Shown piece by piece: positions 23,539 through 34,345 of a DNA stretch of 44,898 nucleotides. Below the pieces are notes generated by a model. It did no database searches. It was given only the letters and a program-made list of their open reading frames with translations, and was not told the DNA's origin. The position numbers were made by a program, and so were the translations under genes. This DNA comes from a virus. How positions within the stretch are numbered: position 1 is the stretch's first letter; every line of letters starts with the position of its first letter. The stretch spans positions 1-44,898 of the IMG/VR virus record IMGVR_UViG_3300039191_000672; one strand, written 5' to 3'.

Positions 23539-23856
23539 ATGAAAGGATTTCCAAAGAAACTTAATTCAAAAGCAGATTATGAAAACATAGTCGATGATTT
23601 TGGTTACACTCAAAAAATTAAGGAAGCTTATCAAGCATTGTTAGAAACTGATAAGCATTATGTGTTTGATAAAAAATTGGCAGCAGAAACAGATAGAACT
23701 GGCCCACTCCCTAATTATAAAGTTATGAAAGAAGATGATCAGGAAACTGAGACAGTGAAAATTGTTCAGTACAAATTAGTAGATAACCCTGACTCAAAAT
23801 TAAAAGAGTTAGGATTTACAGAAGCCGAAGTTCAAGGGGTGATTGACCAATGCTAA
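23539..23856 (+). CDS. Hypothetical fibre-region protein
   Basis: 105 residues, starting right after the collar gene with GAGGAGGT upstream, and overlapping the DGR target by seven bases. It contains DFGYTQKIKEAYQALLETDK and ends with ELGFTEAEVQGVIDQC, a helix like those that close small adaptor proteins. No known domain. Its place between fibre base and diversified adhesin suggests an adaptor or chaperone, which is inference. Confidence 0.65.
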   Translation: MKGFPKKLNSKADYENIVDDFGYTQKIKEAYQALLETDKHYVFDKKLAAETDRTGPLPNYKVMKEDDQETETVKIVQYKLVDNPDSKLKELGFTEAEVQGVIDQC

Positions 23857-24887
23857 GTGTAGTAGGAGCAGATAGTCCTGCTTTTTATAATGCAGAGGGA
23901 AACATAGAAAAGACAGCCGGAGTTCAGGGAATAGATATCCCGGCCCTGGCATTAAGAATTAATAGACAGAATCTAAAAATTGAATCAGCATCAGCACTAA
24001 CTGCCGCAGACAATGATGGCAGTTTTTCTAGTTTTGCGATGGGTACTGATTATTATATCTATGCATGTCAGCCAGCTGATGGAATTGAACCAGATTTTGT
24101 ACTTTCAGCTAACTCTACTTATCCAGATGCAATACCTTCTGGTGTTACTCCCAGTGCTGATAATACTCGCAAAATCGGTGGTTTTCACTATGGCCGGGTA
24201 AGGAATAGTTCAACAGTTTCTGATGTATCAGAGAGTATTGTTCCGAACTCAGTCTGGGACCTTGTTAATCGTCCGAAATGTTCCCCTGAGGGGATGGCTA
24301 AGGTCGGTAACCTATGGGTTGATATTTATCTGGCCGGCGATGATGGCAACGGCGGTGTTGAGTCTAAGTATAACGCTACACCTATCACCGGTACAGAAGG
24401 ACTTAGTTGGTATAGTTTCGCTGAGAGATTTGCTAAGGTAGATAAGAGAATGGCATCAATGTCAGAATGGACAGCGTTAGCTCAGGGCAGTCCCCAGGGT
24501 AATGATGGTGATAACGTCAATGCTTGGTCTAATACATCAAACAGTGGTAGAGCATCAACTGGTACTGTAACAAATGCTATCAGTAATTATAATATTGTTG
24601 ATTGTGCCGGTAATGTTTGGGAATGGCTTGATGAAGTTTCAATCAGACAGGATTCTACAAGTTGGCAGTGGTATGATCCCGCAACTGACTTCGATGAAAC
24701 AATGGAGTCCGGATGGGACCAGCTTGGTGATATGTATCTCCCTAATGCAGATGGCCTTTCAGCTTTCCGCGCCGGTGGCTATTGGGCTGATGGTGTTCAC
24801 TGTGGTGCTCGTGCGTTGGGCCTGAGCCGCAGGCCTTGGCACGTGAACTCGTATATCGGGTCTCGTGGTGTCTGTGATCCTCTGTAA
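23850..24887 (+). CDS. DGR target: diversified lectin-fold tail-fibre protein
   Basis: 345 residues. The C-terminal half has the C-type lectin/FGE-sulfatase-like fold used by DGR targets: MASMSEWTALAQGSPQG, then DCAGNVWEWLDE (about 250-262), and FRAGGYWADGVHCGARAL to the end. The last 41 residues are the variable repeat plus four residues. The N-terminal half (about 1-130) is a probable trimerising or attachment part without a motif I know. It should display the variable residues on the receptor-binding face of the tail fibre. GGGGTGA ribosome site; overlaps the previous gene. No transmembrane segment. Confidence 0.9.
   Translation: MLSVVGADSPAFYNAEGNIEKTAGVQGIDIPALALRINRQNLKIESASALTAADNDGSFSSFAMGTDYYIYACQPADGIEPDFVLSANSTYPDAIPSGVTPSADNTRKIGGFHYGRVRNSSTVSDVSESIVPNSVWDLVNRPKCSPEGMAKVGNLWVDIYLAGDDGNGGVESKYNATPITGTEGLSWYSFAERFAKVDKRMASMSEWTALAQGSPQGNDGDNVNAWSNTSNSGRASTGTVTNAISNYNIVDCAGNVWEWLDEVSIRQDSTSWQWYDPATDFDETMESGWDQLGDMYLPNADGLSAFRAGGYWADGVHCGARALGLSRRPWHVNSYIGSRGVCDPL
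24764..24876 (+). repeat. DGR variable repeat (VR)
   Basis: 113 bp matching the template repeat at 25290-25402 at all 91 non-adenine positions. Twelve of the 22 template adenines are changed (six to G, counted with others to C or T). In protein terms nine of ten adenine-bearing variable codons differ. It ends 11 bases before the end of the target gene; the fully identical 3' part (ATCGGGTCTCGTGGTGTC) is where mutagenic homing would start. Confidence 0.95.
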
Positions 24888-24931
24888 TTCGTAATTTGAT
24901 AATCTGTCTTTTTATTAAGGTGTGAATATTT

Positions 24932-25267
24932 ATCAAAAATCTAACAATACATCAAAAAGTATATGATCTTATGGTTTGGTTTTTCCCGATCGTAGATAAC
25001 TTTCCAAAGTATGAAAAATTTGTACTTTGTACACAGATTAAGAACTCTGTACTTGATATCTCAAAAATTATTATTGAAGCAAATAAAACCAGAGGTAGCA
25101 AAGTTAGATTTCTACATCGGATTGATGTCAGACTTGAACAGTTAAGAATGCTAATTAGGTTTGCTCATGAAAGAAAATATCTAAACCATTCTAAATATGA
25201 AAATGTATCTAAAAAAGTTGATGAAGTCGGCCGAATGCTTGGTGGCTGGATAAAATCATGTGAATAA
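24932..25267 (+). CDS. avd: Avd, DGR accessory variability protein (non-canonical start)
   Basis: About 111 residues. Four-helix-bundle family: VYDLMVWFFPIVDNFPKYEK, then SKVRFLHRIDVRLEQLRMLI and EVGRMLGGWI, matching the helix pattern and the VGR-LG-W end of the Bordetella phage Avd. It forms a basic pentamer that binds the RT and template RNA. The first ATG (24971) lies inside helix 1 and has no ribosome site. AAGGTG at 24916-24921 points to ATA 24926 or ATC 24932; the stop TGA at 24923 closes the frame, so no ATG/GTG/TTG exists before 24971. Confidence 0.85.
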   Translation: MKNLTIHQKVYDLMVWFFPIVDNFPKYEKFVLCTQIKNSVLDISKIIIEANKTRGSKVRFLHRIDVRLEQLRMLIRFAHERKYLNHSKYENVSKKVDEVGRMLGGWIKSCE

Positions 25268-25289
25268 AATTTTGGGGTTAAGAGCGTTT

Positions 25290-25402
25290 TTTCCACGCCG
25301 GTGGCAATTGGAATGATGGTGTTCACTGTGGTGCTCGTGCGTTGAACCTGAACAACAAGCCTTGGAACGTGAACTCGAATATCGGGTCTCGTGGTGTCTG
25401 TG
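25290..25402 (+). repeat. DGR template repeat (TR)
   Basis: 113 bp, 23 bases after the avd stop. Translated in the target frame it has eight AAC/AAT codons, all but one changed in the VR. Invariant residues use codons without A (CGT, GGT, GCC, TGT, TTG), although arginine in this genome is mostly AGA. It is copied into cDNA by the RT with errors at adenines and replaces the VR. Confidence 0.95.
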
Positions 25403-25583
25403 CTCTTCATGCAAAAATCTTTCAGACAGTAGTGGTTACGGCCACTGCTGCAGTGTTTCTAGTAATGAGGAACAGGCTTTTAATCCCTGCTGAGATACTT
25501 TTTTAAGTCAATCCAGCAAAAAATTTAGATTGCTGGCCAGGCAGTAAGTATTGAAAGATAGAAAATTGTCACAGTCAGCGACT

Positions 25584-25615
25584 GCCCGTTCTCATTTGAG
25601 CGGGCTTTTAATTTT
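25584..25615 (+). terminator. Terminator-like hairpin between template RNA and RT gene
   Basis: GCCCGTTC pairs with GAGCGGGC (eight pairs with one G-T), loop TCATTT, then TTTTAATTTT. It would end the template RNA here and lower expression of the RT, whose start is 32 bases downstream. Confidence 0.6.
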
Positions 25616-25646
25616 CACCCAAATATAGAGAAAGTGGTGAGATAAT

Positions 25647-26759
25647 ATTCCAAAAAAATTTAAGAATTCATATCCAAAAATATACGATTTTGAGAACCTA
25701 TACATTTCTTATGAAAATGCTAGAAAATCTAAACGATATACTAACCAGGTCCTTAAATTTACCAATCAACTAGAAAGCAATTTAATTAATCTACAGAACC
25801 AACTTATTTGGAAAGAGTATTTACCTGGCGAATATCATCAATTTTATGTCTATGAACCTAAGCAGCGTTTAGTTATGGCACTTCCTTTTGAGGATAGAGT
25901 GGTCCAGTGGGCGGTATATAGAAATCTAAACCCTATATTCGATAAGACTTTTTATGAGCATAGCTGCGCCTGTCGGATTGGCAAAGGTACTCATTATGCA
26001 GCGGACCAGCTGCAGCACTGGATGAGAAAACTTGATAGAAGTCCAGGAGAAACTTATTATCTTAAAGCTGATGTTGCAAAATATTTTTACCGAATAGATC
26101 ACAGAACTCTTTTTGAAATTATCAAAAGAAAGATTAGCTGCAGAGATACCTTAGAGTTGATCTGGAAGATAATTAAAAAAGATGATGGTGAATTTGGAAT
26201 ACATCTCGGCGATCATTACTTTGAACAAGGGAAAATTAAGGGGATAGGAATCCCGATCGGTAATTTAACCAGTCAGCTTTTTGCAAATGTTTATCTCGAC
26301 TTCATGGATAAGTTTATAAAGCATAATCTAAGAGCTAAACACTACGTCAGATATATGGATGATTTCGTTATTCTGGGAAAACCAAAGAAAGAACTACATA
26401 CTATCAGACAGGAAATAGAAATATTTCTTGCTGATTACTTAAAACTTGAACTTAACAACAAAACTACTGTTGATAATATATGGAATGGTATAGATTTTTG
26501 CGGATATGTTACTTATCCACCATACCGAAAATTGAGAAAGAGTACAAAAAGAAAACTAAAAAGACGGCTTAAATATCTTCAAAAGAAGTACTATAAAGAG
26601 GAGGTGGGAATAGATGAAATAAATGCCAGTGTACAAAGTTACTTGGGAATATTGAAACATTGTGATAGTCATAATCTCACAATGTCAGTTATTGGCCAGT
26701 TGGAAGATGAAATACTTAATCAACTAGATTTAGAGGACGCTCTAGAACAAAGAAGTTGA
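25647..26759 (+). CDS. DGR reverse transcriptase (ATT start)
   Basis: About 370 residues. Motif A ADVAKYF with D142, the DGR signature IPIGNLTSQ (202-210) and the active site YMDDF (236-240) are all present. The conserved N-terminus (PKKFKNSYPKIYDFENLYIS, then PGEYHQFYVYEPKQR) lies upstream of the first ATG (25875), so that ATG cannot be the true start. TGA at 25638 closes the frame; only GAT AAT ATT CCA AAA follow, and ATT 25647, six bases after GGTGA, stands where relatives have the ATG of MPKK. It copies TR RNA with errors at adenines, together with Avd. Confidence 0.93.
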   Translation: MPKKFKNSYPKIYDFENLYISYENARKSKRYTNQVLKFTNQLESNLINLQNQLIWKEYLPGEYHQFYVYEPKQRLVMALPFEDRVVQWAVYRNLNPIFDKTFYEHSCACRIGKGTHYAADQLQHWMRKLDRSPGETYYLKADVAKYFYRIDHRTLFEIIKRKISCRDTLELIWKIIKKDDGEFGIHLGDHYFEQGKIKGIGIPIGNLTSQLFANVYLDFMDKFIKHNLRAKHYVRYMDDFVILGKPKKELHTIRQEIEIFLADYLKLELNNKTTVDNIWNGIDFCGYVTYPPYRKLRKSTKRKLKRRLKYLQKKYYKEEVGIDEINASVQSYLGILKHCDSHNLTMSVIGQLEDEILNQLDLEDALEQRS

Positions 26760-33178: not shown

Positions 33179-33305
33179 AAAAACAGGTAATGTTACAAAT
33201 CGAGAAATAATAGACAGCAATCCAGATATAAAAGAAAGTGAAATTTATTCTCCTTTTTCAAAAATAGTTTATGACAAAATTATGAATAGGGAGGGAAGCA
33301 ATTAA
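33144..33305 (+). CDS. Small early protein
   Basis: 53 residues, start chosen for GGAGGAG at 33131-33137. The sequence MALAIKRVTVDRKTGNVTNR is beta-hairpin-like. No family recognised. Its TAA overlaps the ATG of the next gene. Confidence 0.62.
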   Translation: MALAIKRVTVDRKTGNVTNREIIDSNPDIKESEIYSPFSKIVYDKIMNREGSN

Positions 33306-34345
33306 TGGATCAACTAAAAGAGAGCAAGTTTAACTATAGCCAACTCCAACCAGAGATGGCTAATTTTTTGAAAACAAAAGAAACTAACATGAAAGAAATT
33401 GTTGGCAGCGCTTATACCAGAATTGGAAAAGAATTAAAAGATGCTCAAGATAAACTTTCTCAAAATGGATATGGTTGTTTCCAGGAATGGTACGAAAGCT
33501 TAGGTTTTAAAAAAGATAAAGTTTATAGAATAATAAAAAGGTATAATTTGATTCTCGCAAATAGCGAGAAACAAGATTTAATCGAAGACTTACCTTTAAG
33601 CTTGAGTTACGAAATCGCAAAAAAATCAGCCGATCCAGAGCTCAAGCAGCAAGTCCTGGATGGAGAAATAACTTCTCATAAGAAATTTAAAAAACTAAAA
33701 AAAGAAAAAGAAAAACTTGAAGAAGAGAAAGAAAGACTGGAAGAAAGTAACCAATTTTTAGAACAAATTAGAGATGGTCTTATAAAAGAGAGAGACCAGG
33801 AACGTCAGAAAAAAATAAATGTTTATAAAAAAATTAAGGAATTAAAAGATAAAGAACCTGAAACTATAGAAAAAGAAGTTATTCCAGATGATTATAAAAG
33901 AATGAAAGAACAAAACAGAAAAATGAAGCAGCAGCTGCAGCAAAAGCAGAATGAACTAGATAAGTTATCTAATGATATCAAGGAGTTGAATAAAGATAAA
34001 AAAATCATTGAAGAGAAAGCCAATCTTAATGAGCGGGAAGCGGAAGAATATAAACAGCTTAAAAATAAAATAAAAAATCTCAAAGAACAAAAAAACAGTA
34101 TTCACAGAAAGTTTGAAGCTGTTGGCAGTATAGCTGATTTTGTAACTGATATAGAAAGCTTTTTGCAGAATAAGCTGGCTCCAGTTAAATATTCTCGAGC
34201 ATTAACTGAAGCAAGTGATGATGAAATTGTAGTCAAAAATGTAAAAGAAATAGTAGGTAAAGTCAGAGAGTGGTGTAATGAAGTTGAGGATCTACTGCCA
34301 GAAAAGAAAAATTATATTGATGCTGAGGTGATTGATAGTGAGTAA
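33305..34345 (+). CDS. Coiled-coil protein with DUF3102-like N-terminus
   Basis: 346 residues. N-terminal 100 residues (GSAYTRIGKELKDAQDKLSQ, GCFQEWYESLGFKKDKVYRI) are like DUF3102/ParB-type helical DNA-binding regions of plasmids and phages; SLSYEIAKKSADPELKQQ follows. A long coiled coil covers about 115-270. The C-terminus (ADFVTDIESFLQN and VREWCNEVEDLLP) is helical. It may organise DNA or partition, but the role is unproven. Early operon. Confidence 0.68.
   Translation: MDQLKESKFNYSQLQPEMANFLKTKETNMKEIVGSAYTRIGKELKDAQDKLSQNGYGCFQEWYESLGFKKDKVYRIIKRYNLILANSEKQDLIEDLPLSLSYEIAKKSADPELKQQVLDGEITSHKKFKKLKKEKEKLEEEKERLEESNQFLEQIRDGLIKERDQERQKKINVYKKIKELKDKEPETIEKEVIPDDYKRMKEQNRKMKQQLQQKQNELDKLSNDIKELNKDKKIIEEKANLNEREAEEYKQLKNKIKNLKEQKNSIHRKFEAVGSIADFVTDIESFLQNKLAPVKYSRALTEASDDEIVVKNVKEIVGKVREWCNEVEDLLPEKKNYIDAEVIDSE

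Follow-up and report, generated by a model that had tools for sequence, protein, structure and literature searches.

How does a phage that mutates its own tail protein keep the mutating machinery from firing too often? This question about self-mutating retroelements is posed by a stretch of viral DNA of 44,898 nt (IMG/VR record IMGVR_UViG_3300039191_000672, positions 1 to 44,898; the whole stretch is called the window below). It carries a diversity-generating retroelement (DGR): a target gene that contains a variable repeat (VR), avd, a template repeat (TR), a spacer, and a gene for a reverse transcriptase (RT). The element is almost certainly an active DGR of the BPP-1/Mtd type in a temperate phage with a contractile tail. 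Established here are the anatomy of the cassette, adenine-only VR changes between near-identical phages, VRs that follow their own TRs, covariation in the RNA, and the Mtd fold of the target.

The data are public contigs and related sequences, and all counts come from these. A search with an exact 27-nt VR/TR string matched no other viral contig; relatives were then reached through the RT and target proteins in IMG/VR, eleven near ones first and further ones later. The clade contains two cassette types, one with an Avd of type A and an Mtd target and the other with an Avd of type B and an FGE-domain target.

Adenine-Specific Variation and Recent Homing

The order target, VR, avd, TR, spacer, RT, as proposed by an earlier reading made from the letters of the window (the sequence-only reading), is correct and the same as in BPP-1. 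In a de novo search, the two repeats rank first among the direct repeats of the region, at an offset of 526. Compared base by base, they differ at 12 positions, every one at a TR adenine (12/22) and none at C, G, or T (0/91; hypergeometric p 1.3e-10); realignment thus reproduces exactly the adenine-only pattern, with nine altered target residues, that the earlier reading had described. The TR-to-VR changes are A>G (7), A>C (3), and A>T (2). Homology between the repeats ends right after a segment that contains no A, and the putative initiation of mutagenic homing (IMH) and IMH* sequences differ just 3′ of this segment, in a D/A codon (GAT vs. GCT).

Could ordinary duplication, recombination, or point mutation under selection have produced these differences? 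Tail tips are fast-evolving in general, but here the changes fall only on adenines and the genes for RT and Avd adjoin the repeats; among the 22 members of the clade that have both repeats (related to one another, with 16 distinct TRs), the repeats differ at 270/562 adenines and 12/1964 other bases. The chance that ordinary mutation is responsible is negligible.

The sequence-only reading had also proposed a search for genomes that share a TR and differ in their VRs. L003 and L004, from different samples, are such a pair: they differ at 1/914 positions of the target before the VR, 0/113 of the TR, and 12/113 of the VR, and all 12 VR differences sit on template adenines. Furthermore, TR-to-VR copying predicts that a VR will match the TR of its own lineage at non-adenine sites. 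Where the TRs differ at such sites, each VR agrees with the TR of its own cassette at 18/18 between the window and L011 and at 10/10 between L010 and L016. The L003/L004 pair and the adenine counts across the clade together indicate a recently active Mtd-type DGR.

It is very unlikely that the element is decayed or frozen, its VR bearing the marks of past activity and its cassette no longer homing. This alternative can draw on the absence of a GC-rich hairpin after the VR, on the absence of a canonical RT start (both discussed below), and on RT fragments in L013, which retains the target, and in G022. However, neither RT nor Avd nor TR is damaged, and all three are conserved; L003 and L004, both with the AUU start, differ almost solely in the VR and there only at adenines; and L003 has homed recently even though it, too, has no hairpin after its VR. 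Nor is the RT gene broken in most copies, an outcome the sequence-only reading had named as fatal to its claim: it is intact and open in 65 of the 69 judgeable Mtd loci. Decay was ruled out on the strength of this intactness and of the L003/L004 pair.

Loss of the DGR has probably occurred elsewhere. In L013 (L013:3902-5399), the Mtd gene is kept while avd, the TR, and the N-terminal half of the RT are gone, leaving only RT residues 238-370; a second genome (G022, contig C39) has a similar RT fragment. Both are probably cases of DGR loss with a frozen tail tip.

The Target and Its Tail Context

What does the element diversify? The target matches the second domain of Mtd (Pfam, 8.7e-19), and against PDB profiles it hits 1yu1 (5.5e-21), its best solved relatives being BPP-1 Mtd variants. 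An AlphaFold2 model built from 56 homologs (pLDDT 88, pTM 0.87) aligns with 1yu2 at Z 31.4 and a root mean square deviation of 2.4 over 297 residues (VIA-align), which supports, at the level of a predicted structure, the proposed lectin-fold protein at the end of a tail cluster. Residues 3-345 of the model lie on Mtd 47-378; the target therefore has no counterpart to roughly the first 46 Mtd residues. Of the AAC/AAT codons in the window TR, all eight (by alignment and codon tables) fall on Mtd positions that vary in BPP-1: 344, 346, 357, 359, 360, 364, 366, and 368.

Two small genes precede the target (Table 1). The 185-aa collar protein is a probable fiber stub near the Mtd-like tip. The 105-aa protein has no Pfam or PHROG match; among the Mtd-type relatives inspected (L003, L006, L010, L011, L112-L121), its gene keeps this place before the target. 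The collar stub and the 105-aa protein may substitute for the missing N-terminal part of Mtd.

A temperate contractile-tailed phage, as had been suggested, is supported by baseplate genes, a large serine recombinase, a CI-like repressor, and a tail sheath match that is weak and below the Pfam cut-off. Elsewhere in the window, positions 33305-34345 encode a 346-aa protein that matches PHROG 1733 and is conserved in phages; the labels for positions 369-824 disagree (Pfam phage metallopeptidase PF18894, 1.8e-31, vs. a PHROGs "transposase," 2.3e-10).

Table 1. Features of the DGR and adjoining genes, in window coordinates.
Feature	Coordinates	Strand	Remarks
Tail-collar fiber N-terminal domain protein, 185 aa	22981..23538	+	PF12571 2e-11; PHROG tail fiber 3.1e-52
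105-aa protein	23539..23856	+	directly upstream of target
Target gene, Mtd-fold variable tail protein, 345 aa	23850..24887	+	
VR	24764..24876	+	inside C-type-lectin part of target
Adenine-free VR 3′ end, IMH-like	24856..24876	+	identical to TR 25382-25402
GATAATCTG motif	24898..24906	+	3′ of VR, where BPP-1 has hairpin
avd	24932..25267	+	likely AUC (24932) or AUA (24926) start
Long-range helix, 5′ strand	25274..25285	+	just upstream of TR; 12 bp with 25476-25487
TR	25290..25402	+	last 21 nt IMH*-like
Structured spacer of template RNA	25403..25646	+	
Long-range helix, 3′ strand	25476..25487	+	in spacer
Intrinsic-terminator-like hairpin, then TTTTAATTTT	25584..25605	+	between template RNA and RT
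Shine-Dalgarno-like AAAGTGGTGA	25631..25640	+	before RT
DGR reverse transcriptase, 370 aa	25647..26759	+	AUU start

The Region Downstream of the VR

A hairpin after the VR is usual in phage DGRs, though it does not strictly define them; in BPP-1, it is helpful but not essential (PMC3240598, PMC12875486). In the window, a scan of 70 nt after the VR (stem of at least 5 pairs, loop of 3-6) found no GC-rich hairpin or cruciform, and none is present within 70 nt in the other listed Mtd-type members, L003 included. The same kind of scan detects the BPP-1 hairpin, and FGE-type members have a GC-rich hairpin with a GATA loop at this place. Thus, of the claim that the DGR is complete, the presence of target, VR, avd, TR, spacer, and RT stands, but "complete" is too strong a word because the usual cis element after the VR is absent. 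Mtd-type cassettes show the VR diversity expected of homing without the usual hairpin. Motifs resembling GATAATCTG (WWTCTG/WWTYTG) are enriched 10-40 nt after the VR in Mtd-type and in some FGE-type cassettes.

A Folded Template RNA

The TR is bracketed by a predicted long-range helix that joins bases just upstream of it to the middle of the spacer. In 13 Mtd-type relatives, aligned without regard to structure, its 12 bp are 100% paired, with two-sided changes at 3 pairs. Over all 56 pairs tested (this helix, the spacer hairpins, and a terminator-like stem), 99.7% of cells are paired, and two-sided changes occur at 17 pairs. Covariation scores 0.323, compared with 0.187 for shuffled alignments, a control against which the relatedness of the 13 also favors structure, and with at most 0.095 when the structure is slid, a lenient control since the structure was derived from the alignment on which it was tested. 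The covariation supports the folded spacer that had been read from the letters of the window; Rfam has no family match anywhere in the region. The TR flanks of FGE-type cassettes are unlike those of the Mtd type and yet are also complementary, TAGTAGGCC with GGCCTACTT, as read by eye.

Between the template RNA and the RT gene lies a hairpin that resembles an intrinsic terminator. Its stem is kept in 12/13 Mtd-type relatives, mostly with one-sided changes and with one two-sided pair. Such an element would favor template RNA over RT mRNA. A construct that yielded more template RNA, along with more RT, gave better homing in E. coli (PMC12875486). In L011 (L011:4808-5000), the spacer is ~50 nt shorter and the terminator-like hairpin is deleted; the AUU start of the RT is retained.

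An RT Gene Without a Canonical Start

The RT matches Pfam RVT_1 (2.3e-20) and the PHROG RT family (1.2e-137), its motifs are intact (YMDD at residues 236-239; IGNLTSQ, of the [IVL]GxxxSQ type, at 204-210), and it is 50% identical to the RT of phage BalMu-1. Where does it begin? The frame has a TGA at 25638, three codons before AUU 25647, and its first ATG, GTG, or TTG comes at residue 77; the start is AUU 25647, which corrects the first ATG at 25875. Among the 55 plus-strand window ORFs (open reading frames) of at least 100 codons, the RT alone has so late a canonical start. The clade shares this feature: 20 of its 24 RTs with an intact 5′ end have AUU at the start site and 4 have AUC, at or beside the position where other DGR RTs start, and AGTGGTGA or a similar sequence precedes the gene. 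In contrast, a canonical start stands at most a few codons away in 98/101 RTs outside the clade. Two or three of the 24 (L010, L192) have a TTG or GTG two or three codons ahead of the site; it is probably too near the Shine-Dalgarno (SD) sequence to be the preferred start. Three more distant DGR RTs (L022, L023, L206) have AUA at the homologous site, L022 without a canonical start nearby.

The avd gene (Pfam bAvd 1.9e-29, PHROG DGR Avd 3.6e-29) is similar. Its frame has a stop at 24923, and the bAvd score is 113 bits from 24932 compared with 103 bits from ATG 24971 (cut-off 40); avd probably starts upstream of that ATG, at AUC 24932 or AUA 24926. In the window, L003, L006, L010, L011, and L016, the conserved Avd N-terminus has no canonical start and fits AUC, AUA, or AUU. 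L112-type avd genes start with TTG, and those of the FGE type mostly with GTG or ATG.

It is improbable that the RT is begun in some way other than at the AUU alone, by frameshifting or reinitiation from a GTG that overlaps the SD-like sequence. A GTGGTG does lie in another frame just upstream, and in the window this frame, GTG GTG AGA TAA, ends one base before the AUU, a layout that fits reinitiation. However, (i) the frame stops before the RT in the window, just inside it in L010 and L112, and later in L003; (ii) GTGGTGA also fits an SD sequence; (iii) the AUU/AUC lies at or beside the usual start site of DGR RTs; and (iv) reinitiation would use the AUU anyway. Frameshifting from the GTG frame onto an A-run at the RT start was rejected, as the frame is not preserved in relatives.

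A Brake on Mutation?

AUU, AUC, and AUA belong to the class of codons that initiation factor 3 (IF3) discriminates against, as in infC. Tail-tip mutation in the clade may thus be governed by deliberate under-translation, with near-cognate starts on RT (and on Avd in the subclade of the window) and a hairpin that yields template RNA in excess over RT, so that start-codon quality would set the mutation rate; this proposal is tentative and somewhat more likely wrong than right. A conserved weak RT start may serve as a brake, and the mutation rate could then be linked to the IF3 level and hence to the growth state of the host.

The proposed sequence of events is as follows. The TR would be transcribed within a folded RNA, closed by the helix described above. 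RT, with Avd, would make cDNA with random bases opposite adenines; RT output would be low, owing to the AUU start and the terminator-like hairpin upstream. The cDNA would replace the VR and thereby alter residues on the face with which the Mtd-fold tail tip binds ligand, and the altered tip would probably change the host surface bound. A switch in host range is suggested by the parallel with BPP-1.

Several points weigh against this picture. Activity in the window phage itself is inferred from relatives, by sequence comparison; the hairpin/cruciform that BPP-1 requires for efficient homing is absent here; the 24/24 AUU/AUC starts are not 24 independent cases, as clade members are related; translation from the near-cognate start could still be efficient in the host of this phage; and the role of the terminator-like hairpin may be confined to RNA structure.

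Why would weak RT translation matter? In BPP-1, brt has no clear ribosome-binding site (RBS); when one was supplied, retrohoming in E. coli rose 100-fold (PMC12875486). A near-cognate start throughout a clade would be an independent route to a BPP-1-like brake. There is also a practical consequence: a published DGR pipeline called ORFs from ATG only (PMC6642488), which would shorten an AUU-start RT such as this one. In the freely accessible literature, no mention was found of a DGR RT that starts at AUU.

Cassette Types, Mosaic RTs, and the Host

How did one RT clade come to serve two different heads? RT phylogeny does not track the Mtd/FGE split. In a tree of RT bases 1-450, the FGE types are acceptable as one clade (p-AU 0.415), whereas in a tree of bases 760-1110, a single FGE clade is rejected (p-AU 0.00014), and 4 changes of label are required. 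Two FGE-type members, L007 and L188, are identical over the first 555 RT bases and 69-84% identical over the last 444; these last 444 bases of L007 are 81-95% like those of the window. Homology between the window and FGE-type cassettes starts at 25484, mid-spacer. Because the trees of the RT ends disagree, L007 and L188 form a mosaic, and homology sets in at 25484, heads comprising target, Avd, TR, 5′ spacer, and RT start appear, from these sequence comparisons, to have been exchanged through recombination inside the RT gene. Plain transfer of whole cassettes was dropped as the origin of the two types, as the trees of the two RT ends disagree. Mosaic RTs would mean that phages can swap an entire target-plus-template head through recombination within RT.

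Relatives whose RTs are 79-87% identical to that of the window reside in Halanaerobium saccharolyticum and in a Halanaerobiales metagenome-assembled genome; their hosts suggest that the window phage probably infects Halanaerobium or a close relative. The cultured H. saccharolyticum MA284_T2 has two DGRs of the clade, L015 (FGE-type) and L017 (Mtd-type), each with adenine-only VR/TR differences. No freely accessible paper was found that joins DGRs and Halanaerobium.

Comparison With Known Systems

The FGE-type cassettes of Halanaerobium phages and prophages (L007, L008, L009, L015, L188-L190) share with the window an RT that is 78-87% identical, with the same AUU start and SD sequence, and the same 3′ half of the spacer. 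They differ in an Avd that is only ~35% identical, in another TR, in a target that carries an FGE-sulfatase domain in place of Mtd, and in the GC-rich GATA-loop hairpin after the VR. Chromohalobacter phage YPCBV-1 (OP380511) has an Mtd-like target 41% identical over 85%, together with Avd, RT, and an adjoining baseplate cluster, but its RT is only 36% identical and starts with TTG. The archaeal virus ANMV-1 (PMC4372165) likewise has an Mtd-like target and adenine-specific VR/TR differences; unlike the window phage, it has an archaeal host and a short inverted repeat after the VR, which the window lacks.

The classical BPP-1 element (mtd-avd-TR-brt) resembles the window in gene order, adenine mutagenesis, Avd, and a structured spacer, and its Mtd is ~27% identical to the target, with aligned variable positions; BPP-1, too, has a predicted long helix that joins bases upstream of the TR to the spacer (duplex -22.8 kcal/mol). 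The differences lie elsewhere: brt has an ATG without a clear RBS (PMC12875486), whereas the window RT has an AUU with a good SD sequence; the window has a terminator-like hairpin before the RT and no GC-rich hairpin after the VR; and its target, without the ~46 N-terminal residues, belongs to a contractile-tailed phage with a serine recombinase. The window element is of a known kind, an Mtd-type DGR, and a variant of it by four features that the sequence-only reading had missed: its RT start, its terminator-like hairpin, its missing target hairpin, and the apparent swapping of heads.

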